A program made the position numbers and the translations under genes. Under the pieces are notes generated by a model, which was not told the DNA's origin, searched no databases, and worked only from the letters and a program-made list of their open reading frames with translations. From assembly GCA_031291845.1 (NCBI GenBank), contig JARLIH010000406.1:1-64000 (forward strand): 64,000 bases of DNA. The letters are read 5' to 3'. The DNA is from Isosphaeraceae bacterium (lineage in GTDB: Bacteria > Planctomycetota > Planctomycetia > Isosphaerales > Isosphaeraceae). This document shows, piece after piece, positions 5,305-64,000 of this stretch (position 1 is the stretch's first letter; each line of letters begins with the position of its first letter).

Positions 5305-6654
5305 ATGAGAAGGTTCGACCCGGTTCCGTTGGGTGTGGCTCGTCGCGTCGTGGTGGCGCTGGCCGTGTTGAGCCTGCCGGGCTGTCAGAAGGCGGCCGAC
5401 AAGGCCCTCCCGCCAGCGCCGACGGTTGGCGTGGTCGAGTCGCGACGGATGAGCGTGCCGATCGAGGTGACGCCCAACGGGACGACCCGCGCGCTGGAAA
5501 ATGTGACGATTCGGGCGCGCGTCCGCGGCTTCCTTACCGAGCGCCACTTCGTGGAGGGGGCATTGGTCAAGAAGGGACAGCTCCTGCTGGTGATCGACGA
5601 GGAGCCGTACCAGATCGCCCTCCAGTCAGCGCGGGCCCGGCAGGCCGAGGTCGAGGCTGCGCTCAAGAAGGCACAGGAATCGAAAGGGCCGGAGGTCTCA
5701 GCGTCGCAACTGGAGCTCGACCGGGCCCAACTGGTACTCGCCCAGATTCAAGAGAAGCGCAACCGGGCGCTCGTGTCGCGGAACGCCGGGTCGGCCGAGG
5801 ACGTCGACAAGACCGAGTCCGACCGCAAGCGCTGGGAAGCGCAGGTCGAGGCCGACCGCGCGCACCTCGCCCAGGCGAAGGCCGACTACTCCGTGGGGAT
5901 CGCCACGGCCCACGCGCAGGTCTCGGCCGCCAAGGCCGCCGTCCGTGACGCCGAGCTGAACCTGGGCTACTGCCGGATGTATGCCCCGCTCGAAGGCCGG
6001 ATCGGCGAGGCCCGGGTCAAGGTCGGCAACCTGGTCGGGCCGGATCAGGCCGGTGGGGGCGCATTCACCGACCTGGCCACGATTCAACAGCTCGACCCGA
6101 TGGGCGTCGACCTCCGGCTCAGCTCGCGCGACCTCGACCGCATCACCACCCTGATCGAGAAGGGGCTGGCCGTCCGCATCCTCCGCCCCGGGCCGGACGG
6201 CCCGCTGGAGCATCCCCATAGCGGACAGGGCTTCTTCATCGACAACACGGTCGACGAGACCACCTCCACGTTCCTGGTCAAGGCCCAGGTTCCCAACCCC
6301 GGCGGCAAGCTCCTCCCAGGCGAGTATGTCAAGGTCCGGATGGTGATCGACCGGCTGGAGAACGCCGTGGTGGTTCCCGCTCCCTCGGTCGTCGAGTCCG
6401 AATCGGGGACCATCGTCCACATCGTCGACGCGGAAGGAAAGGTGGCCGTCCGGCAGGTCGTCGCGGGCCAGGCCCACGAAGGGCTGCGGGTGATCACCAA
6501 GGGCCTCGACGCCGGTGCCTCCGTGATCGTCGACGGGTTGCAGATGATCCGGCCGGGTCTGCCGGTCAAGGCCGAGCCGGCCGTGCTCACCCAGCGCGAA
6601 ACCGGCAGGACCAAGGTGACGAGGGCCGACGCCGCGACAGCGCCCAACTTGTAA
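5305..6654 (+). CDS. RND efflux periplasmic adaptor (membrane fusion protein), lipoprotein
   Basis: 449 residues. ATG 5305 (GGGAG upstream) gives a lipoprotein signal peptide ending in the lipobox LPGC (Cys about residue 28). A barrel-sandwich half motif (VRGFLTERHFVEGALVKKGQ) is followed by a long coiled-coil hairpin (about residues 100-220), the second lipoyl half (YAPLEGRIGEARVKVGNLV), then beta-barrel and membrane-proximal domains. MexA/AcrA-type adaptors couple an inner-membrane RND pump to an outer-membrane channel. It lies 53 bp upstream of the pump gene and surely forms an operon with it; no TolC-like gene is nearby. Confidence 0.9.
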   Translation: MRRFDPVPLGVARRVVVALAVLSLPGCQKAADKALPPAPTVGVVESRRMSVPIEVTPNGTTRALENVTIRARVRGFLTERHFVEGALVKKGQLLLVIDEEPYQIALQSARARQAEVEAALKKAQESKGPEVSASQLELDRAQLVLAQIQEKRNRALVSRNAGSAEDVDKTESDRKRWEAQVEADRAHLAQAKADYSVGIATAHAQVSAAKAAVRDAELNLGYCRMYAPLEGRIGEARVKVGNLVGPDQAGGGAFTDLATIQQLDPMGVDLRLSSRDLDRITTLIEKGLAVRILRPGPDGPLEHPHSGQGFFIDNTVDETTSTFLVKAQVPNPGGKLLPGEYVKVRMVIDRLENAVVVPAPSVVESESGTIVHIVDAEGKVAVRQVVAGQAHEGLRVITKGLDAGASVIVDGLQMIRPGLPVKAEPAVLTQRETGRTKVTRADAATAPNL

Positions 6655-6707
6655 CCCGTAGCAGACACACCCATTCCCATCCGATCCTCCCTGGGAAACC
6701 GACGGTC

Positions 6708-9700
6708 ATGGTCGACTTCTTCATCCGCCGGCCGATCTTCGCGACGGTCTCAGCGCTCTTGATGCTCCTGATCGGCGGGATCTGCGCGTTCGGGCTGCCG
6801 ATCGCGCAGTATCCCCCGGTTGCGCCCCCTCAGGTCCAGGTGACGACCACCTATACCGGGGCGGACGCCCTGAGCGTCGCACGGACAGTGACCACGCCGA
6901 TCGAGCAGCAGATCAACGGCACCAAGGGGATGATCTATTACAACTCCGACAGCACCAGCAACGGCGTGTCGAACATCGTGGCCACGTTCGACGTCGGCTA
7001 CTCGCAGGACATGGCCGCCGTCGATATCCAGAACCGCGTGCAGACCGCACAGGCGCAGCTTCCGCCCGAAGTCAAGCAGTACGGTGTCTCGATCAAGAAG
7101 ACGTCGACCGATATGGTCTGCGTCGTCAACCTGATCTCGCCCGACGGCCGGTTCGACGCCAACTTCCTGGACAATTACGGGCAGATCTACGTCGCCGACG
7201 TTCTGAAACGGATCAACGGGGTCAGCGACGCCACCGTGCTCGGGCGCAAGTATGCAATGCGGATCTGGATCGACCCCGACCGCCTGGCCAACATGAAGAT
7301 CGCCCCGACCGAGGTGATCCAGGCGATCCAGCAGGAGAACGTGCAGGCGGCCGCCGGCAAGATCGGTAGCCGGCCGGTCCCCACCGGGCAGGATTTCGAG
7401 CTGCCGATCACGCTCAAGGGGCGGCTGGAGAAGGCGGCCGAGTTCGAGGAGATCATCGTGCGACGGGGCGACGACGGCTCGATCGTCCGCATCAAGGACA
7501 TCGCCCGCGTCGAGCTGTCGTCAGAGAACTACGAGTCGGCCAGCTACATCGACGGTAAGCCGGCCGGCGGCATCCTGATTTACCAGTATGCCGACGCCAA
7601 CGCGCTGGCGATCATCCACACGGTCCGCCAGGAGATGGACCACCTCAAGGCGAGCTTCCCGGAAGGGCTCGACTACACGATCGTGTACAACACGACCGAC
7701 TATGTAGACGAGAACATCAAGGAGGTTCAGCACACGCTGGTCGAATCGTTCATCCTGGTCATGATCGTCGTGTTCGTGTTCCTCCAGGGCTTCCGCGCCA
7801 CGATCATCCCGATGTTGGCGATCCCGGTCTCGCTGGTCGCCACGTTCGCGGTGATGGCGGCGTTCGGCTTCTCGATCAATTCGTTGACGCTGTGCGGGCT
7901 GGTGCTGGCGATCGGCCTGGTGGTCGACGACGCGATCATCGTGGTCGAGAACGTCGAGAAATACCTGCACCGAGGCCTGCCCCCCCTGGAAGCCACCCGC
8001 GCGGCGATGGCCGAGATCACCACGCCGATCGTGACGATTACCCTAGTCCTGGCCGCCGTGTTCGTTCCCGTGGCGTTCATGCCAGGGATGACCGGGAAGC
8101 TATACAACCAGTTCGCGATGGCCATCGTCTTCTCGTTCATGTTCTCGGCGTTCAACTCACTCTCGTTCAGCCCGGCAATGTCGCGGCTGTTCCTCCGCCC
8201 GAAGCGCGGCGAGACCCGGTTCTTCCTGTTTCGCTGGTTCAACGCCGGGCTGAGCTGGATCGAGAATTCCTACGACGCAGTGCTCGAATGGACGGCCCAC
8301 CACTGGTGGACGATCGTCGCGCCGTCGGTGGTCCTGCTGGGGCTCACCGGCTGGATGATCGCCAACCGGCCCAAGGCGTTTATCCCGACCGAGGACCAGG
8401 GTTACGTGATCTGCGTGGTCCAGACCCCCGACGGCACCAGCGGCGAGAAGACGGCAGCGGTTCTCCAGCGCGTTGAGGGGCTGATCCGGGGCGAAGAGGG
8501 GGTCGAGCACACAGTCATGCTCGAGGGCCTGAACGTGATCACCTCGACCAACCAGACCAACTGCGGCGTCGTCTTCGCGAGACTGGCGGACTGGGACAAG
8601 CGGAGGACGCCCGGGCTCAGGGCCACCGGTCTTGTCCAGAAGCTCCAGGCGAAGGTTTCGTCAGTCCGCGACGCCATGGTGATGGTCCTTCAGCCGCCCC
8701 CCATCCGCGGCTTGAGCCAGACCGGGGGCTTCGAGCTGATGATCGAGGACCGTTCGGGCAAGGGAGTCGAGGCGATCCAGAGAGTCGTCGACCGGTTCCA
8801 GGACGAGGCGCGCAAGCGGCCCGAGTTGGCGGGGGTCTTCTCGACCTTCTCGGCCCGGGTGCCCCAGCTCAAGTTCGACGTCGATCGCACCAAGGCCCGG
8901 CGGTTGGACGTGCCGATCGCCGACCTGTTCGCAACGCTCCAGGCCAACCTCGGCGGTTACTACGTCAACGACTTCGACCTCTACGGCAAAGTCTGGAAGG
9001 TCATGGTCCAGGCCGAGGGGAGCGTGCGCACGAAGCCCCAGGATATCCAGAACCTGTACGTCCTGAACCGCAAGGGGGAGCGCGTCCCGCTCAGCTCTCT
9101 GGGCGAGGTCCGCTACGCCCTGGGGCCGATCGATGTGCCCCACTATAATCTCTACGCCGCCGCCAAGATGAACGGCGGCCCTGCTCCGGGCTACAGCTCG
9201 GGCCAGGCGCTCGTCGCGATGCAGGAGGTCGCCGCCGAGGTCCTGCCCGAGGGATTCGGCACGGAGTGGACCGGCACGACCTTCCAGGAGCAGAAGACTG
9301 GCAATCAGGCGACCTACATCTTCGCCCTCTCGGTCATCTGCGTCTTCCTGTTCATGGCGGCCCTCTACGAGAGCTGGATCCGGCCCACGGTCATCATCCT
9401 CACGGTCCCCTTGGCCATGTTCGGCGCAATCGTGGGCCTTTGGCTCTACGACATGCCGCTGGACGTGTTCGGGCAGATCGGCCTGGTGATGCTGATCGGG
9501 CTGGAGACCAAGAACGCGATCCTGATCGTCGAGTTCGGCGTCGAAATGCGCAGGGACCGGGGGTTGAGCATCCTGGAATCCGCCAAGGCGGCCTCACGCG
9601 AGCGCCTACGGCCGATTTTGATGACGTCGTTCGCCTTCGTCATGGGCGTGCTACCAATGGCCCGCGCCACGGGGGCGGGGGCTTACAGCCGAAACTCGCT

Positions 9701-9905
9701 CGGCATCGTGATTGCTTTCGGGATCGCCGTCAGCACGGTCCTCGGCCGGTTCGTCATCCCGATCTATTATGTGCTGGGAGAGCGGCTCATCGACTACTTC
9801 GTCCGAGGTCGCGACGAGTCGCACCATCCGCACCCTCCGGTCGTAGAAGAACGGGTCGGGCACGCTGTGCCGTCCCACGAGCAGGTGCCGGTGTCGGTCC
9901 ACTAA
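6708..9905 (+). CDS. RND multidrug efflux pump, AcrB/MexB-type (HAE1)
   Basis: 1065 residues, the usual length for hydrophobe/amphiphile efflux RND permeases. Starts MVDFFIRRPIFATVSALLMLL (TM1). The two large periplasmic loops and twelve-TM layout are visible. The proton-relay Asp pair of TM4 is in IGLVVDDAIIVVENVEK and the TM10 Lys in IGLETKNAILIVEF, so it should be an active H+ antiporter. Substrates cannot be read from sequence, but the HAE1 type exports drugs, dyes or detergents. Partner adaptor is directly upstream; an Rrf2 regulator follows 99 bp downstream. Confidence 0.93.
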   Translation: MVDFFIRRPIFATVSALLMLLIGGICAFGLPIAQYPPVAPPQVQVTTTYTGADALSVARTVTTPIEQQINGTKGMIYYNSDSTSNGVSNIVATFDVGYSQDMAAVDIQNRVQTAQAQLPPEVKQYGVSIKKTSTDMVCVVNLISPDGRFDANFLDNYGQIYVADVLKRINGVSDATVLGRKYAMRIWIDPDRLANMKIAPTEVIQAIQQENVQAAAGKIGSRPVPTGQDFELPITLKGRLEKAAEFEEIIVRRGDDGSIVRIKDIARVELSSENYESASYIDGKPAGGILIYQYADANALAIIHTVRQEMDHLKASFPEGLDYTIVYNTTDYVDENIKEVQHTLVESFILVMIVVFVFLQGFRATIIPMLAIPVSLVATFAVMAAFGFSINSLTLCGLVLAIGLVVDDAIIVVENVEKYLHRGLPPLEATRAAMAEITTPIVTITLVLAAVFVPVAFMPGMTGKLYNQFAMAIVFSFMFSAFNSLSFSPAMSRLFLRPKRGETRFFLFRWFNAGLSWIENSYDAVLEWTAHHWWTIVAPSVVLLGLTGWMIANRPKAFIPTEDQGYVICVVQTPDGTSGEKTAAVLQRVEGLIRGEEGVEHTVMLEGLNVITSTNQTNCGVVFARLADWDKRRTPGLRATGLVQKLQAKVSSVRDAMVMVLQPPPIRGLSQTGGFELMIEDRSGKGVEAIQRVVDRFQDEARKRPELAGVFSTFSARVPQLKFDVDRTKARRLDVPIADLFATLQANLGGYYVNDFDLYGKVWKVMVQAEGSVRTKPQDIQNLYVLNRKGERVPLSSLGEVRYALGPIDVPHYNLYAAAKMNGGPAPGYSSGQALVAMQEVAAEVLPEGFGTEWTGTTFQEQKTGNQATYIFALSVICVFLFMAALYESWIRPTVIILTVPLAMFGAIVGLWLYDMPLDVFGQIGLVMLIGLETKNAILIVEFGVEMRRDRGLSILESAKAASRERLRPILMTSFAFVMGVLPMARATGAGAYSRNSLGIVIAFGIAVSTVLGRFVIPIYYVLGERLIDYFVRGRDESHHPHPPVVEERVGHAVPSHEQVPVSVH

Positions 9906-57786: not shown

Positions 57787-58418
57787 AGCGCGAGATCGTG
57801 CGGCAAAGGCCGCGGGGTCAGGAAGCGAACTTGCGACTCAGAGGACCAGGGTCTCCTCGTTCCGAGCGCCTTCGTAGCTCAACGGCGTGGGGAGGGCGAG
57901 AGACCTTGCGTGTCACTGGGAACCACGCTTCCCGCCGCGTATCGCCGCACGCTGCGCCTGCCGTACCGGCATACCGGTACGGCCCTTAGCCGCAAACAAG
58001 CAACATTGTTGGAGAAAATGATCTAGTCACACAGTACTATGTCAGCGTGTAAGTTAGTGAATTTTAGCCGCGGATCGTGCTCTCGGCACGGCGGCTGCTT
58101 GAATATGGCCAACTTCCTTGGCCGCAGGACTGCGGTTACAGCCGGAACAGGGGAGCGAAAGTCGGTCGCGGATCGGATAGGTGGGTTGGGGCACAGTTGA
58201 ACATAGGAGTCCCAAGGCAGGTGCCCCTCTTGGGCGCGGACGGGCCATTGCCGATGGTCCGCGGTGGGCACGGTGCGCGCCGCGTGGACGTTGGCAAGGA
58301 AGTTTTCCCTTCCGGACTAGGCCTGAGGCCGTGGGACGCGGGCTGCCTTTGGCAGACTCGACAGGGCATTCCGACCGATTTTCCGGGAACTTCGACTCTC
58401 ACCGTAGGAGCATCGAGA

Positions 58419-59732
58419 ATGGGCATCTTTGATTTTGTACCCCAGCGCGAGACCGGCCGGTCTGCGCGGGCCCGTCGCCGCAGGATGTCGCGTTGGCACC
58501 ACTCGGCTGTCGAAGGGCTCGAGGACCGCCTGGTCCTGTCGCAAGCCAGCGCCGCCGTCACCACGTCGAGCGACCTGCAAGCGTCGACCACACAAGGCGT
58601 CGATCAACTGATTCAGCAGCTTCAGAATGACGTGACCGCGGTCGAGGGGGCAGCGACCGTCCTTACGCCCTCCATCAACGAACAGATCGACGGCACGTTC
58701 GGCACGCTTCTCCAACCGCTCAGCAACATTCCCTATGATAACGGGGCCTCGGGCGGGGTGAACGCCCAGCTCGCGGTACAGGCGGGCACCGCGATCAACG
58801 CGACGCAACTGGGCGCCAACGAGATGCTCGGGGTCTACACCAAGACACTGCTCATCACCGGCGCCGCGACCGGATCATCCGACGGCACGATCACGCTCAG
58901 GAATGGGCAGTCCTACAACTTCCAGGCGGTGCAGAATCAACTCAACCAAGCGTTTGACACTTTCCGCACCAACTTCTTCACCGCGCAGAGCGCACTACTG
59001 GCCGGTGGTGGCACCGCCAACGGCACGGCCATCAACACGTCGAGCGACCTCAGCAACTACACGACCGCGAACATCCAGATCCTGATCACCCAGGTCGAGT
59101 CGGCGCTCTCGGCCGTACCAAATGCGTCGACCGCGTTGACCCCCTCAGTCGTCGACGAAATCAATGGCTCGCACCCCTACAGTGCCCTCCTTCCGGTCCT
59201 GAACGTAATTCCGTACGACACGGCAGCGTCCGCCGGCATCGACGCCGCGTATTTCGACGACGCGTCCGTCGCCATCAACACGACCCAACTCGCCGTCAAC
59301 GAGATGCTCACAGTCGGTACCCTGGCCGTGCTCGAGTCGGGCCACGCGCGCGGTACGTCCGATGGGACAATCCACCTCGCCGACGGACAGTCGTATAACT
59401 TCCAGACCGTGCAGAATCAGCTCAATCAAAACTTCGCCACGTTCAGCGTTAACTACTTCACCGATCAGAACGCGTTCTTTTCGAGCTCCGGCTCAACGAG
59501 CGGTAGTGGCTCGACCAGCGGCAGCGGCTCGACCAGCGGTTCCGGCTCAACGAGTGGCAGTGGCTCGACGAGCGGTTCCGGCTCGACGAGCGGCAGTGGC
59601 TCGACGAGCGGTTCCGGCTCAACGAGCGGCAGTGGCTCGACCAGCGGTAGCGGCTCGACGAGTGGCTCTGGCTCAACGAGCGGCAGTGGCTCGACGAGCG
59701 GTAGCGGCTCGACCAGCGGCACAGGGGCTTAA
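58419..59732 (+). CDS. Surface protein with duplicated domain and Gly-Ser-Thr repeat tail
   Basis: 437 residues. Begins with a basic leader and the planctomycete motif [11 protein letters not shown], which marks exported planctomycete surface proteins. Two about 130-residue repeats follow: [20 protein letters not shown]...[16 protein letters not shown] and [22 protein letters not shown]...[16 protein letters not shown], with shared [12 protein letters not shown]. The tail is 12 exact-length GSTSGS units (59490-59705) plus [13 protein letters not shown] precedes ATG 58419. The tail is probably a flexible, secreted or cell-wall spacer. No catalytic motif. Confidence 0.75.
59490..59705 (+). repeat. 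Tandem 18-bp repeats (coding GSTSGS)
   Basis: Twelve consecutive 18-bp units with synonymous third-base variation (GGT/GGC/TCC/TCT mixtures) encoding GSTSGS. Length polymorphism by slipped mispairing is expected, changing tail length in whole six-residue steps and preserving the reading frame. Confidence 0.85.
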
Positions 59733-60005: not shown

Positions 60006-61418
60006 TTGATCACCCAGCTAACGATTGAAGACACGAGAGAGCAACGGACGCTTGATAATCCTCTCGAACGCCTGCGGCGGAAGTATCCCTGGCCTGATGA
60101 GCGGCCGGTCATCCAGGGGCCGATCGAGAGCTACGGCTGGTTTGGTGAGGGGACAGACGAGGTCCTGACCCGGAACTTGTCGGAAGAGACACGCCTGGTT
60201 GTGGAGCTTGGCTCGTGGCTCGGCATGTCCACGCGGTTCATCGCCGACATCGCCCCGCATGCCACGGTGGTCGCGGTCGACACGTGGGCGGGGAGCACGG
60301 AGCACCAGAATCAGTCCCGCTTCCAGTCGATGCTGCCGACGCTCTACAGCAACTTCCTGTCGCTGAGCTGGTCGTATCGCGACCGGATCGTCCCGCTACG
60401 AATGAATTCGTTGGAAGGTCTGCGCACCGTGGCCGAGTTCGGGCTCCAGCCCGACGTGATCTTCGTCGACGCGGAGCACAGCTTCGAGGCCGTGACGTCC
60501 GAGCTGAACCAGGCGTACAAGCTGTTCCCGCGAGCCACGCTGCTGGGAGATGACTACGATTGGGAAGGCGTTCACGAGGCGGTCGACGGGTTCGCAAAGT
60601 CCAGCGGAATGGAAGTCGAGCGGGTTGGGCTGCGCGGATGGAAACTAATCAGCCGGGTTGAGGCGCCGGTCAACGGGACCGTCGCCAACGGCGCTGCGCC
60701 GCACGTGAACGGGGCGCCGAGCAAGGCCCCAGCGCGCTCCCAATGCGTCGTGCTGGTGCCGTACATGAGCTCGATCGATAACCCGTGCGAGCAGGGCTTG
60801 CGAGGCCTCGAGGCTGCTGGCGTGCAGGTTCGCCGCCGCCCGGGTAGCTCGGGCATTGACGTCGCCCGCAACGAGATGTTCTCCGACGCGCTCCACGATG
60901 GGTTCGAGTCGATCATGTTCATTGACTCCGACCTTGGCTTCGACGCGGCCGACGCCCTGCGGATGCTCTTGCGGCCCGAGCCGGTCCTGTCGGGGGTCTA
61001 CGCCAAGAAGGGCCCGCGCGAGGTTACCAGCTCGTTTGCCGAGGGGGTCAAGAAGGTCGTCTTCGGCCCCGAAGCGCCCGGCCTCTATCCCTTACGGTAT
61101 GCCGCGACCGGCTTCCTGCGCGTGCGGTCGGAGGTGCTGCGACACATGATCGAGCGGCTGAAGCTGCCCCTCTGCAACACGGTCTGGGGCCGGGGTGTCT
61201 GGCCGTTCTTCCAGCCCATGATCGTGGCCCAGGGCGAAGGTAAGTTCCACTACCTGGGCGAAGACTGGGCGTTCAGCCAGCGCCTCAGCATGATCGGCGT
61301 CACTCCCCTCGCCGACACCTCGTTCCGGCTCTACCACTGGGGCCCCTATGGCTTCACGTGGGAAGATGCCGGCGCGGAGCACCCGAAATATCAAACATAT
61401 ACCCTCAACCTATCATGA
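60006..61418 (+). CDS. Methyltransferase-glycosyltransferase-like fusion protein
   Basis: 470 residues. Residues about 1-220: class I methyltransferase of the Methyltransf_24 type, with VVELGSWLGMSTRFIADIAPHATVVAVDTW (motif I) and VIFVDAEHSFEAV. A linker (PVNGTVANGAAPHVNGAPSK) joins a C-terminal domain (about 250-470) with FIDSDLGFDAADALRMLL (DxD-like) and GIDVARNEMF, similar to family 2-type glycosyltransferases. Starts TTG 60006 (GGGGGAG upstream). A near copy of its last 15 codons follows at 61489-61533. Confidence 0.75.
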   Translation: MITQLTIEDTREQRTLDNPLERLRRKYPWPDERPVIQGPIESYGWFGEGTDEVLTRNLSEETRLVVELGSWLGMSTRFIADIAPHATVVAVDTWAGSTEHQNQSRFQSMLPTLYSNFLSLSWSYRDRIVPLRMNSLEGLRTVAEFGLQPDVIFVDAEHSFEAVTSELNQAYKLFPRATLLGDDYDWEGVHEAVDGFAKSSGMEVERVGLRGWKLISRVEAPVNGTVANGAAPHVNGAPSKAPARSQCVVLVPYMSSIDNPCEQGLRGLEAAGVQVRRRPGSSGIDVARNEMFSDALHDGFESIMFIDSDLGFDAADALRMLLRPEPVLSGVYAKKGPREVTSSFAEGVKKVVFGPEAPGLYPLRYAATGFLRVRSEVLRHMIERLKLPLCNTVWGRGVWPFFQPMIVAQGEGKFHYLGEDWAFSQRLSMIGVTPLADTSFRLYHWGPYGFTWEDAGAEHPKYQTYTLNLS

Positions 61419-61554: not shown

Positions 61555-61575
61555 GGTGCATTTCATGCACCCTAC
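61555..61575. repeat. Single copy of GGTGCATTTCATGCACCCTAC
   Basis: A nearly palindromic core matching the arms of the elements at 24894-24970 and 61425-61466. Its end overlaps the stop codon region of the following minus-strand gene (stop at 61572). Confidence 0.7.
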
Positions 61576-63701
61576 TTGGCGTTCACGTAGATGTGGTCCG
61601 CGGTTGACAGCCGGCCCTCTCGCACCTCGACGAGGTCGCCATCTTCCTGGCCGACCTTGACGGGTCGAGCTTCGAAGGCCCCGACGCGGCCCAACGAGAC
61701 GGAAACATAAGTCCCCCTCTCTGCCTCTACGAACACCGATCGCCGCGGCACCAGCAGCGCTTTGCGCGGAGCGCTCGTCGTGACGCGAACGCGCGCGAAG
61801 AGCCCGGCGACCAAGCTGTGGTCTGGGTTCGGAAAGACCGCGCGCCAGCGAGTCGTGCCGGTCGACGGGTCAAACACGTTGTCGAAGGAAAGGAGCTTGC
61901 CGCGGTGTGGGAAGTCTGACTCGTCGGTGAGCGCCATCGCAACCGTCAGACCAGAACCGGCCGGGGTTGGAAGCTTGCCTTCGCGGAGCAGCCGGCCGAT
62001 CCGCAAGGCCGTCCGCTCATCGACCTGGAACGTCACGTACATGGGCTCGAGCGCGACAATCGTGGCGAGAAGCGTCTTGTCGGCGACCGCGACATTCCCC
62101 TCCGTCAGGATCGGCTCGCCGATCCGGCCGTCGATCGGAGCCGTGATGTGGGTCAACTCCAGGTTGAGCCGAGCGAGCTGAAGGGTCGCTTCCGCAGCAC
62201 TCACTTCGGCGTCCGCCTCCTCCGCGTCTGCCTGCGCATTGTTGGCTGTGTCCGATCCGACGACCCTGTTCTGTTCGAGATTCCGGGCATTCGCCAGGGC
62301 CGTGAGTCTCCGTTGCCTTCTTGCCTGAGCGCCGCGTCGCTTCGCGTTGGCCTTGTCGAGCTCGGCCTGGTAGGCGCGTGCGTCGATCTCGAACAGGACC
62401 TCGCCGCGCTTGACGATCCCGCCGACGGGAAAGGCGACCTTGGTGATCACCCCCGAAACACGGGGACGCAGCTCGACGGACTGCACGGGTTCAACTCGTC
62501 CGGTGAACTCCTCGAAGTCGGTGACCTCGCGCTCGATCGGATGCACAAGCTCCCCGGCCGCTAGCGCAGGTAGGCCGGGCTTCGGGGCGTCGGCCGGGCG
62601 CGGCGCAGCAGTCTTGGAGGGGGAGCCAGATGGCTGGGGAGTCTCCTTGGTCACATCATCGGCCTGGCCTGCCCAAACAGGAAGCAGCGGCAGCGACAGG
62701 GCCGCCAGCAGTAGCACCGCACTCGGAGCGCTGCGCGCCCAGGCCGTTGACGGCGAATCGGACAAGAGCATGATCAACCTCCTCTTGAGTAGACGTGCGC
62801 GCCCCGCGCCGCTGGCCCCGACGGGCCGGTAGGAACGCGCGCCGGCGAGAAATGCCGCCGTTGCCACCAGGGCCTCGGCGTAGTCGTGGGCCGAGCCGGG
62901 CAGGGCCCAGGTCACCCAGGCGTCACAGCACGGCTCCTCGGCGCGCTCGACCTCCCGCCGCGCCCACCAGGCGAGCGGGTTCCACCAGTGCAGGCTGAGC
63001 ACGAGCACTTCCAGCCAGCGCACCCAGTGGTCCCTGCGCTTCAGGTGCGCCAGCTCGTGGGCCAGGACCGTCTCCTGCTGCGCCGGGCTAAACTGCTCCC
63101 AGAGCGCTTCGGGGAGCAGCAGCCGAGGCCGGCCGAAGAGCGCCCAAAGCATGGGCGGCACTCGCGCCGGGACGACCCCCAGAACCGGGCAGCCGCGCAG
63201 ACCCAGCCGCGCAGCGAGCTGCTCCGCTCGTTCGCAGACCGCTGCCGGGGCCGGCTGCGCCGAACGCAGGAACCGCCGAAAGCGAACCGTGTACACCCCG
63301 ACGGCCAACCACCACGCGACCACTCCGGCGAGCCAGACCGTAGCGACGACCGGACGCCAGGGCAGGGGACCATGGGTGGCACGCCCGGGGCCGGCGACGG
63401 GCGTGGGCGGCGCTCCCACGTCCGTTGTCGGCCCTGGGCGTGCCACGCGAACCGATGGCTCGATGGAACGTTGTGGTACGAATTGCGCCCTGGGCGACGT
63501 GACAGGCTTCGAGGGAAGGGACGGCTCGGGCAACGGCACGGCCACCAGCGATGGCGTCACGAGCTTCAGCAACACCGCCAGCCAGAGCGCATGGATCAGC
63601 GCCGGTCTGCGCTGGCAGATGCGCGAGACGCACCATGCCAAGGCGGCGAGCGCGGTGGCCCAGGCGGTGTTGCTCAGGCCTAGCCGCAGGAGCGCATCCA
63701 C
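61572..63701 (-). CDS. BlaR1-type M56 metallopeptidase fused to an efflux adaptor domain
   Basis: 709 residues. N-terminal half: several TM helices and the zinc peptidase motif HELAHLKRRDHW (H215-E216-H219), then CCDAWV, as in BlaR1/MecR1 peptidases, ending in a TM helix at about 322-345. C-terminal half (about 385-709): HlyD/RND adaptor modules with FTGRVEPVQSVELRPRVSGVITKVAFPVGG, a coiled coil (ALANARNLEQNRVVGS) and LLVPRRSVFVEAERGTYVSVSLG. No penicillin-binding sensor domain follows the peptidase; the adaptor occupies its place. Upstream BlaI-like gene is 10 bp away; GGAGGG precedes ATG 63701. Confidence 0.85.
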   Translation of the reverse strand: MDALLRLGLSNTAWATALAALAWCVSRICQRRPALIHALWLAVLLKLVTPSLVAVPLPEPSLPSKPVTSPRAQFVPQRSIEPSVRVARPGPTTDVGAPPTPVAGPGRATHGPLPWRPVVATVWLAGVVAWWLAVGVYTVRFRRFLRSAQPAPAAVCERAEQLAARLGLRGCPVLGVVPARVPPMLWALFGRPRLLLPEALWEQFSPAQQETVLAHELAHLKRRDHWVRWLEVLVLSLHWWNPLAWWARREVERAEEPCCDAWVTWALPGSAHDYAEALVATAAFLAGARSYRPVGASGAGRARLLKRRLIMLLSDSPSTAWARSAPSAVLLLAALSLPLLPVWAGQADDVTKETPQPSGSPSKTAAPRPADAPKPGLPALAAGELVHPIEREVTDFEEFTGRVEPVQSVELRPRVSGVITKVAFPVGGIVKRGEVLFEIDARAYQAELDKANAKRRGAQARRQRRLTALANARNLEQNRVVGSDTANNAQADAEEADAEVSAAEATLQLARLNLELTHITAPIDGRIGEPILTEGNVAVADKTLLATIVALEPMYVTFQVDERTALRIGRLLREGKLPTPAGSGLTVAMALTDESDFPHRGKLLSFDNVFDPSTGTTRWRAVFPNPDHSLVAGLFARVRVTTSAPRKALLVPRRSVFVEAERGTYVSVSLGRVGAFEARPVKVGQEDGDLVEVREGRLSTADHIYVNAK

Positions 63702-63711
63702 GGTCCCTCCT

Positions 63712-64000
63712 TCAGCGCGTCTCGCCAGAGCGCTTTGCCCGGCGCTGCGCGCGCAGCAAGCCGGAAAGCTCGTCGATCTCCGCCGCCGAGAGCGGCTTCG
63801 ACCGCACCAGGTTCATGACGAGCGGGGCCACGGCCCCGCCGCAGAGTTTGTCGGCCAGCGTCTGGAGGCGCCGGCGAATCAGCTCGTCGCGCCCGACGGA
63901 CGCCGAGAAGACCAGGACCACCCCGCGCCGCTCGTGGCGAACGAATCCCTTCCGTTCGAGCCGGCCCAGCAGGTTCTGGACGGTCGCATAGTGCGCCTCG
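63712..64000 (-). CDS. BlaI/MecI/CopY-family repressor, N-terminus outside window
   Basis: The last 95 residues of a penicillinase-repressor-type protein; the start lies beyond the right edge. Visible: end of the winged helix YATVQNLLGRLERKGFVRHERRGVVLVFSASVGRDELI, then the dimerisation helices LVMNLVRSKPLSAAEIDELSGLL. Cleaved by a BlaR1-type peptidase in the classical system. First gene of an operon with the M56-adaptor fusion. Confidence 0.9.
   Translation of the reverse strand, partial: EAHYATVQNLLGRLERKGFVRHERRGVVLVFSASVGRDELIRRRLQTLADKLCGGAVAPLVMNLVRSKPLSAAEIDELSGLLRAQRRAKRSGETR

Follow-up and report, generated by a model that had tools for sequence, protein, structure and literature searches.

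A BlaR1-type M56 protease fused to an RND-type periplasmic adaptor in an Isosphaeraceae bacterium

BlaR1-type proteases are known chiefly as beta-lactam sensors. The stretch of DNA analyzed here (the window, i.e., the first 64,000 nucleotides of contig JARLIH010000406.1, which extends past it to 76507 bases) encodes an M56 peptidase that carries, on the same polypeptide, an adaptor of the type found in RND efflux systems, and the question is what such an adaptor does on a signalling protease. The reading that we favour, with a probability of roughly 0.6, is that of an autoregulated BlaR1-type transmembrane signalling protease which employs an RND-type periplasmic adaptor as its extracytoplasmic module. 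No description of M56-adaptor fusions, or of planctomycete M56 proteins, was found in a literature search that had most subscription journals outside its reach.

Architecture of the fusion protein

The fusion gene was read as one open frame, from a GTG start at position 63701 to a stop at 61572, with no internal stops. The features of the locus are as follows:

61572..63701, minus strand: M56-RND adaptor fusion gene, a single ORF of 709 aa with Pfam and NCBIfam domains and four orthologues that are monophyletic in both domain trees
62667..63701, minus strand: M56 gluzincin part, residues 1-345 (Pfam PF05569, hydropathy, conserved residues), with TM helices placed by hydropathy at ~7-25 (TM1), ~39-57 (TM2), ~118-136 (TM3) and ~327-345 (TM4), and active-site residues HELAH 215-219, D224, E256xxxD260, Y274 and R308
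62556..62666, minus strand: proline-rich linker, residues 346-382, of low confidence
61581..62543, minus strand: RND periplasmic adaptor domain, residues 387-707 (TIGR01730; AcrA/MexA by sequence and fold; model), comprising lipoyl halves, an alpha-hairpin (~442-516), a barrel and a membrane-proximal domain
62256..62291, minus strand: hairpin tip, at the position of the RxxxLxxxxxxS channel-docking motif, reading N-L-G (N471, L475, G482)
63712..64000, minus strand: 3' part of a BlaI-like repressor gene (Penicillinase_R), the whole gene reaching contig position 64116 and encoding 134 aa
Contig 64131-64143 and 64156-64168, outside the window: two candidate operators on the blaI promoter

The M56 and adaptor domains are both complete. 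Peptidase_M56 (PF05569) matches residues 15-312 with 113 bits, above its curated cut-off of 31, while the BlaR1 model NF000326 reaches 54 bits versus 400 and aligns with residues 118-322 alone, i.e., with the protease part only. On the adaptor side, Pfam returned HlyD_D23 (409-636) and HlyD_3 (519-626), and the NCBIfam model RND_mfp (TIGR01730) spans residues 390-704 with 211 bits against a cut-off of 94.9, covering positions 8-305 of its 322; the top-scoring NCBI model for this part is MexE, under its own cut-off. The AlphaFold model of the protein (47 rows) has a mean pLDDT of 85 and an adaptor block that is mostly above 90, with low-confidence stretches at residues 65-109 (the TM2-TM3 loop) and 338-379 (pLDDT below 50). 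The best PDB matches of this model in Foldseek are AcrA and MexA (E ~1e-28 to 1e-20), to which the adaptor domain is ~29-35% identical by structural alignment, and AcrA was also found by a sequence search (E 1e-45). The preliminary description of an M56 peptidase bearing an HlyD/AcrA-type adaptor is thus confirmed by the single ORF, by its Pfam and NCBIfam domains and by the AlphaFold/Foldseek result.

The hydropathy peaks and model helices are compatible with a predicted topology of four TM helices and a putatively external C-terminal domain. The protein possesses the HExxH and ExxxD gluzincin motifs and also the BlaR1-site Asp, Tyr and Arg. No variation was seen among 73 relatives at H215, E216, H219, D224, D260, Y274 and R308, and E256 is at least 90% conserved in them; all eight residues are invariant in the four fusions described below. 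Their counterparts among the described BlaR1 residues (H201, E202, H205, D210, D246, Y261, R294 and E242; PMC9834060) were assigned here by motif spacing. We infer from these residues and the fold that the M56 domain is a cytoplasmic-facing zinc protease.

The architecture resembles that of the BlaR1/MecR1-BlaI/MecI systems of S. aureus and B. licheniformis in its M56 gluzincin motifs, in where its TM helices are predicted to lie, in having a C-terminal domain beyond the final helix, and in the neighbouring gene for a BlaI-type repressor, whose promoter is overlapped by palindromes. Unlike BlaR1/MecR1, however, the fusion has an RND adaptor instead of a penicillin-binding sensor, and a BlaR1-like autocleavage site, with its bulky hydrophobic P1' residue, was not seen: the place of the BlaR1 S283-F284 bond reads S-G (position 10 before R308), in a loop whose alignment is uncertain. 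Further differences from these systems are an Asn-Leu rather than an Asn-Phe in the partner BlaI, and the absence of a resistance gene from the detected regulon. Similarly, the complete lipoyl, hairpin, barrel and membrane-proximal domains are shared with the RND adaptors AcrA, MexA, MexE and MexC (TIGR01730), from which the fusion differs in being anchored by an M56 protease, in the absence of a pump gene beside it and in the replacement of R-L-S by N-L-G.

Origin of the fusion and outer domains of its relatives

Full-length fusions are present in three other genomes, two of them from the same family, namely G024 (L041:8681-10963, 760 aa) and G033 (L042:8956-11268, 770 aa), both encoding proteins ~45% identical to that of the window. 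The third, G147 (L159:1168-3783, 871 aa), belongs to another family of the class and is a single-contig complete chromosome. Since full-length orthologues stand in other genomes, on other contigs and in one case on a complete chromosome, a frameshift or assembly join is ruled out, and the alternative of two separate genes, raised in the preliminary description, is excluded.

The four fusions form one clade both in a tree of 75 M56 domains (support 100/99) and in a tree of 38 adaptor domains (99/98), and the order of the fusions is identical in the two, i.e., WIN,(G147,(G024,G033)), where WIN is the window fusion. The branch uniting G147 with G024 and G033 is supported at 99/85 in the M56 tree versus only 87/39 in the adaptor tree, and the inner order is therefore less certain for the adaptor. 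The concordance of the trees rules out independent fusions, and because both group the four in the same order they point to a single fusion event; on this phylogenetic evidence, the M56-adaptor fusion arose once and has been retained across family-level distances. A wider search extended to 45 genomes from the family, 398 from the class, 91 from a second family and 392 from the phylum. In the large scans, which used strict thresholds, only two candidates were scored for each genome, and more distant fusions may therefore escape them.

Several partial or repetitive features were observed alongside these fusions. In G001, a genome of the same genus, tblastn matched the C-terminal stretch of the adaptor alone (query residues 565-706, 55-58% identical) and detected no M56 part joined to it; the stretch lies at L169:13647-14090, where it is 55% identical to the fusion. 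Where matches in C432 and G021 continue beyond the M56 part, the sequence is a coiled coil and not an adaptor, and a weak adaptor-profile match in L020 (18 bits, 70 residues) was likewise judged to be a coiled-coil match. The TM2-TM3 loops of the G024 and G033 proteins contain a repeat-like in-frame stretch, 'PALPLTKGELEGV...HPPVSPLGKGGS', which occurs twice in G033.

According to the preliminary description, M56 peptidases normally carry a penicillin-binding domain, which does not hold for the 73 M56 relatives, a sample drawn from relatives of the window protein: no penicillin-binding family is among the families matched by at least four of them, and beta-propellers are common instead (~13/73). 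Carboxypeptidase-regulatory repeats, HEAT repeats and coiled coils also occur after TM4 in related M56 proteins, paralogues included. In the fetched loci, BlaI-like frames are frequent (88 distinct). The fusion shares the M56 core with these other planctomycete M56 proteins but has an adaptor in the position of their WD40 propellers, coiled coils, HEAT repeats or carboxypeptidase-regulatory repeats. Given that the corresponding slot is filled by other outer domains in relatives, the adaptor appears to be one of many sensor swaps, and by this comparison one of several outer domains set on one protease core. Among the same-genome paralogues, a WD40 propeller is found in L004 and carboxypeptidase-regulatory repeats in L006 and L002. 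The M56 protein of L071:1547-4420 combines a polysaccharide-export domain with HEAT repeats, and L028:184-2517 holds two RND adaptor domains in a single 777-aa frame adjoining RND-like genes.

The BlaI repressor and its predicted operators

The repressor frame, whose partial sequence in the window matches Penicillinase_R (PF03965) with 65.7 bits, ends at position 63712, 10 bp ahead of the GTG of the fusion gene, with a GGAGG in between. The BlaI gene adjoins the fusion gene in the window, G033 and G147, and lies ~1.1 kb upstream of it in G024, in which a broken transposase-like frame (L041:10963-12068) stands between the two. BlaR1 is known to cut BlaI between Asn101 and Phe102; aligned with the S. 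aureus protein, the window BlaI reads Asn-Leu at this position, as do the BlaI proteins of all four fusion loci, while His-Leu is the commonest reading among the 88 BlaI-like frames.

The window blaI promoter consists of TTGACA, 17 bp and TACCAT, with AGGCAGACCGCCT located within the spacer and AGGCAATTTGCCT immediately downstream. This layout recurs, slightly altered, in the promoters of G033 and G024, and the G147 promoter has two perfect TAGGCAACTTGCCT sites. Pairs of such AGGCA-N4-GCCT-like sites are thus found on the blaI promoter in all four fusion genomes, their starts being 25, 25, 25 and 26 bp apart. The proposed operon with a BlaI-like repressor is accordingly upheld by the Penicillinase_R gene 10 bp away and by this site pair. 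Exact AGGCAANTTGCCT has one copy in the genome of the window, at the blaI promoter. When one or two mismatches were allowed in scans for a wider BlaI regulon, sites were fewer than those of the reversed control in each of the genomes, and operator pairs were found at the blaI promoter alone in the four genomes scanned, although such a scan is blind to diverged sites. Because the pairs occur only at this promoter and looser sites are fewer than in the control, we see the blaI-M56 operon as autoregulated, with no further target by operator scan and with the sites as predicted operators.

As regards the neighbourhood, a sulfatase frame runs divergently from approximately contig position 64305; a conserved divergent target was considered and rejected, since the divergent gene is not conserved among the four genomes (a sulfatase, a TIM-barrel protein, none clear). 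Past the 3' end of the fusion gene, a methyltransferase-like gene occupies 60006-61418 on the opposite strand. Also on the plus strand, positions 58077-59732 hold a 551-aa frame without Pfam match and with a Gly-Ser-Thr repeat tail, in which a tandem repeat (59489-59722) has a period of 18/36/54.

Sensor domain or pump component

None of the four fusion genes (window, G024, G033, G147) has an RND pump gene as its immediate neighbour. A reading of two tables gave ~22 full-length or near-full-length RND genes in the genome of the window, each with an adaptor match nearby (tandem RND genes share one), and a half-length RND frame on C225 without such a match. The window also contains, at ~5452-9776 (plus strand), another adaptor gene with a full-length RND pump gene downstream of it. 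At E 1e-8, two RND genes in G147 and four in G024 were without an adjacent adaptor match, and an orphan partner pump is therefore possible there.

Residues of the RLS motif are needed for binding to TolC (PMC3391258). The motif is intact (R-L-S) in the G147 fusion and reads N-L-G in that of the window, and N-L-S and Y-L-S in the other two; in an alignment with 34 standalone adaptor domains, the docking Arg is present in 31 of the 32 readable ones versus one of the four fusions, with at least two losses indicated by the tree order. The loss of this residue in three of four fusions points away from a pump role and toward a sensor role, but is suggestive only, because some known efflux adaptors lack the motif (PMC4446572). 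Identity in the hairpin is 35.5% among the fusions versus 28.7% among matched standalone pairs, with corresponding values of 33.9 versus 37.9 for the barrel and 29.4 versus 34.8 for the membrane-proximal part, these being small differences over few pairs. In the trees, the fusion proteins have longer branches for the adaptor than for M56.

The coupling to efflux that had been proposed for this locus was consequently not borne out, given the absence of an adjacent RND gene in all four genomes, the adaptors near the full-length RND genes of the window's genome and the docking Arg lost in three of four fusions; nor did the operator scan yield the BlaI-regulated RND pump that was sought, the operator pair being solely at the blaI promoter. 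That the protease reads the assembly or occupancy of an RND pump via its built-in adaptor, and so links efflux directly to transcription through repressor proteolysis, is quite improbable. A more specific version, in which the adaptor docks on an RND pump and feels drug or pump occupancy while the protease releases BlaI to raise pump expression, would draw on the parts for sensing and repressor cleavage that are present, and on the proposal that a membrane-proximal residue of AcrA senses AcrB substrate occupancy (PMC8934357); it is nevertheless very doubtful in view of the missing adjacent pump, the confinement of paired operators to the blaI promoter, single sites no commoner than in the reversed control, and divergent neighbours that are not conserved.

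The fused domain could alternatively be a working RND adaptor for a pump encoded elsewhere, anchored by the M56 part and tuning its own level via BlaI. The complete adaptor fold and length, the R-L-S of G147, the conserved hairpin and the unpartnered RND genes of G147 and G024 are consistent with such a role, which we yet consider unlikely, as the full-length RND genes of the window's genome already have adaptors nearby, no pump gene adjoins the fusion in any of the four genomes, the docking Arg was lost at least twice by the tree, conservation of the barrel and membrane-proximal parts falls slightly below that of matched standalone adaptors, and the adaptor branches exceed those of M56. Those long branches, and the C-terminal remnant detected alone in G001, could also be read as signs of a tolerated tail with no function of its own; this is highly improbable for a frame that is open and full length in four genomes across a family-level distance and whose lipoyl and hairpin parts are conserved as in standalone adaptors.

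A signalling protease is favoured by the complete domains, the one retained fusion event, the kept protease residues, and the BlaI gene, Asn-Leu and operator pair found in all four genomes. Most likely, its adaptor portion senses a protein or ligand rather than serving a dedicated pump, as suggested by the lack of an adjacent RND gene in all four genomes, the adaptors near the full-length RND genes of the window's genome, the docking position reading N, N and Y in three fusions, and the other outer domains of relatives. Counting against a sensor are the full R-L-S of G147 and a hairpin body no less conserved than that of standalone adaptors, which would not be required of a freed sensor domain; the S-G at the autocleavage place and the unpartnered RND genes, which make a distant partner pump possible, also weigh against the signalling reading.

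By its predicted topology, the adaptor of such a signalling protease would hang from TM4 across the membrane, where BlaR1 has its penicillin sensor. By binding something, or by shifting its oligomeric state, it may switch the protease onto the partner BlaI, which, by alignment with the Asn101-Phe102 site, would be cleaved at Asn-Leu; BlaI would then leave the two promoter-overlapping sites, and the blaI-M56 operon would be induced. Both sensing by the adaptor and the release of repression are putative steps. Since BlaR1 is a domain-swapped dimer (PMC9834060) and two AcrA copies fused in tandem are functional, it is a natural idea, and an idea only, that an adaptor dimer or ring could alter the protease dimer.

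These findings indicate that the M56/BlaI relay can be fitted with very different outer domains, here probably a whole efflux adaptor in the sensor position, kept together with repressor and predicted operators. The fusion may thus offer a clean case for two questions: by what means an M56 protease is switched by its outer domain, and whether an adaptor is capable of sensing.
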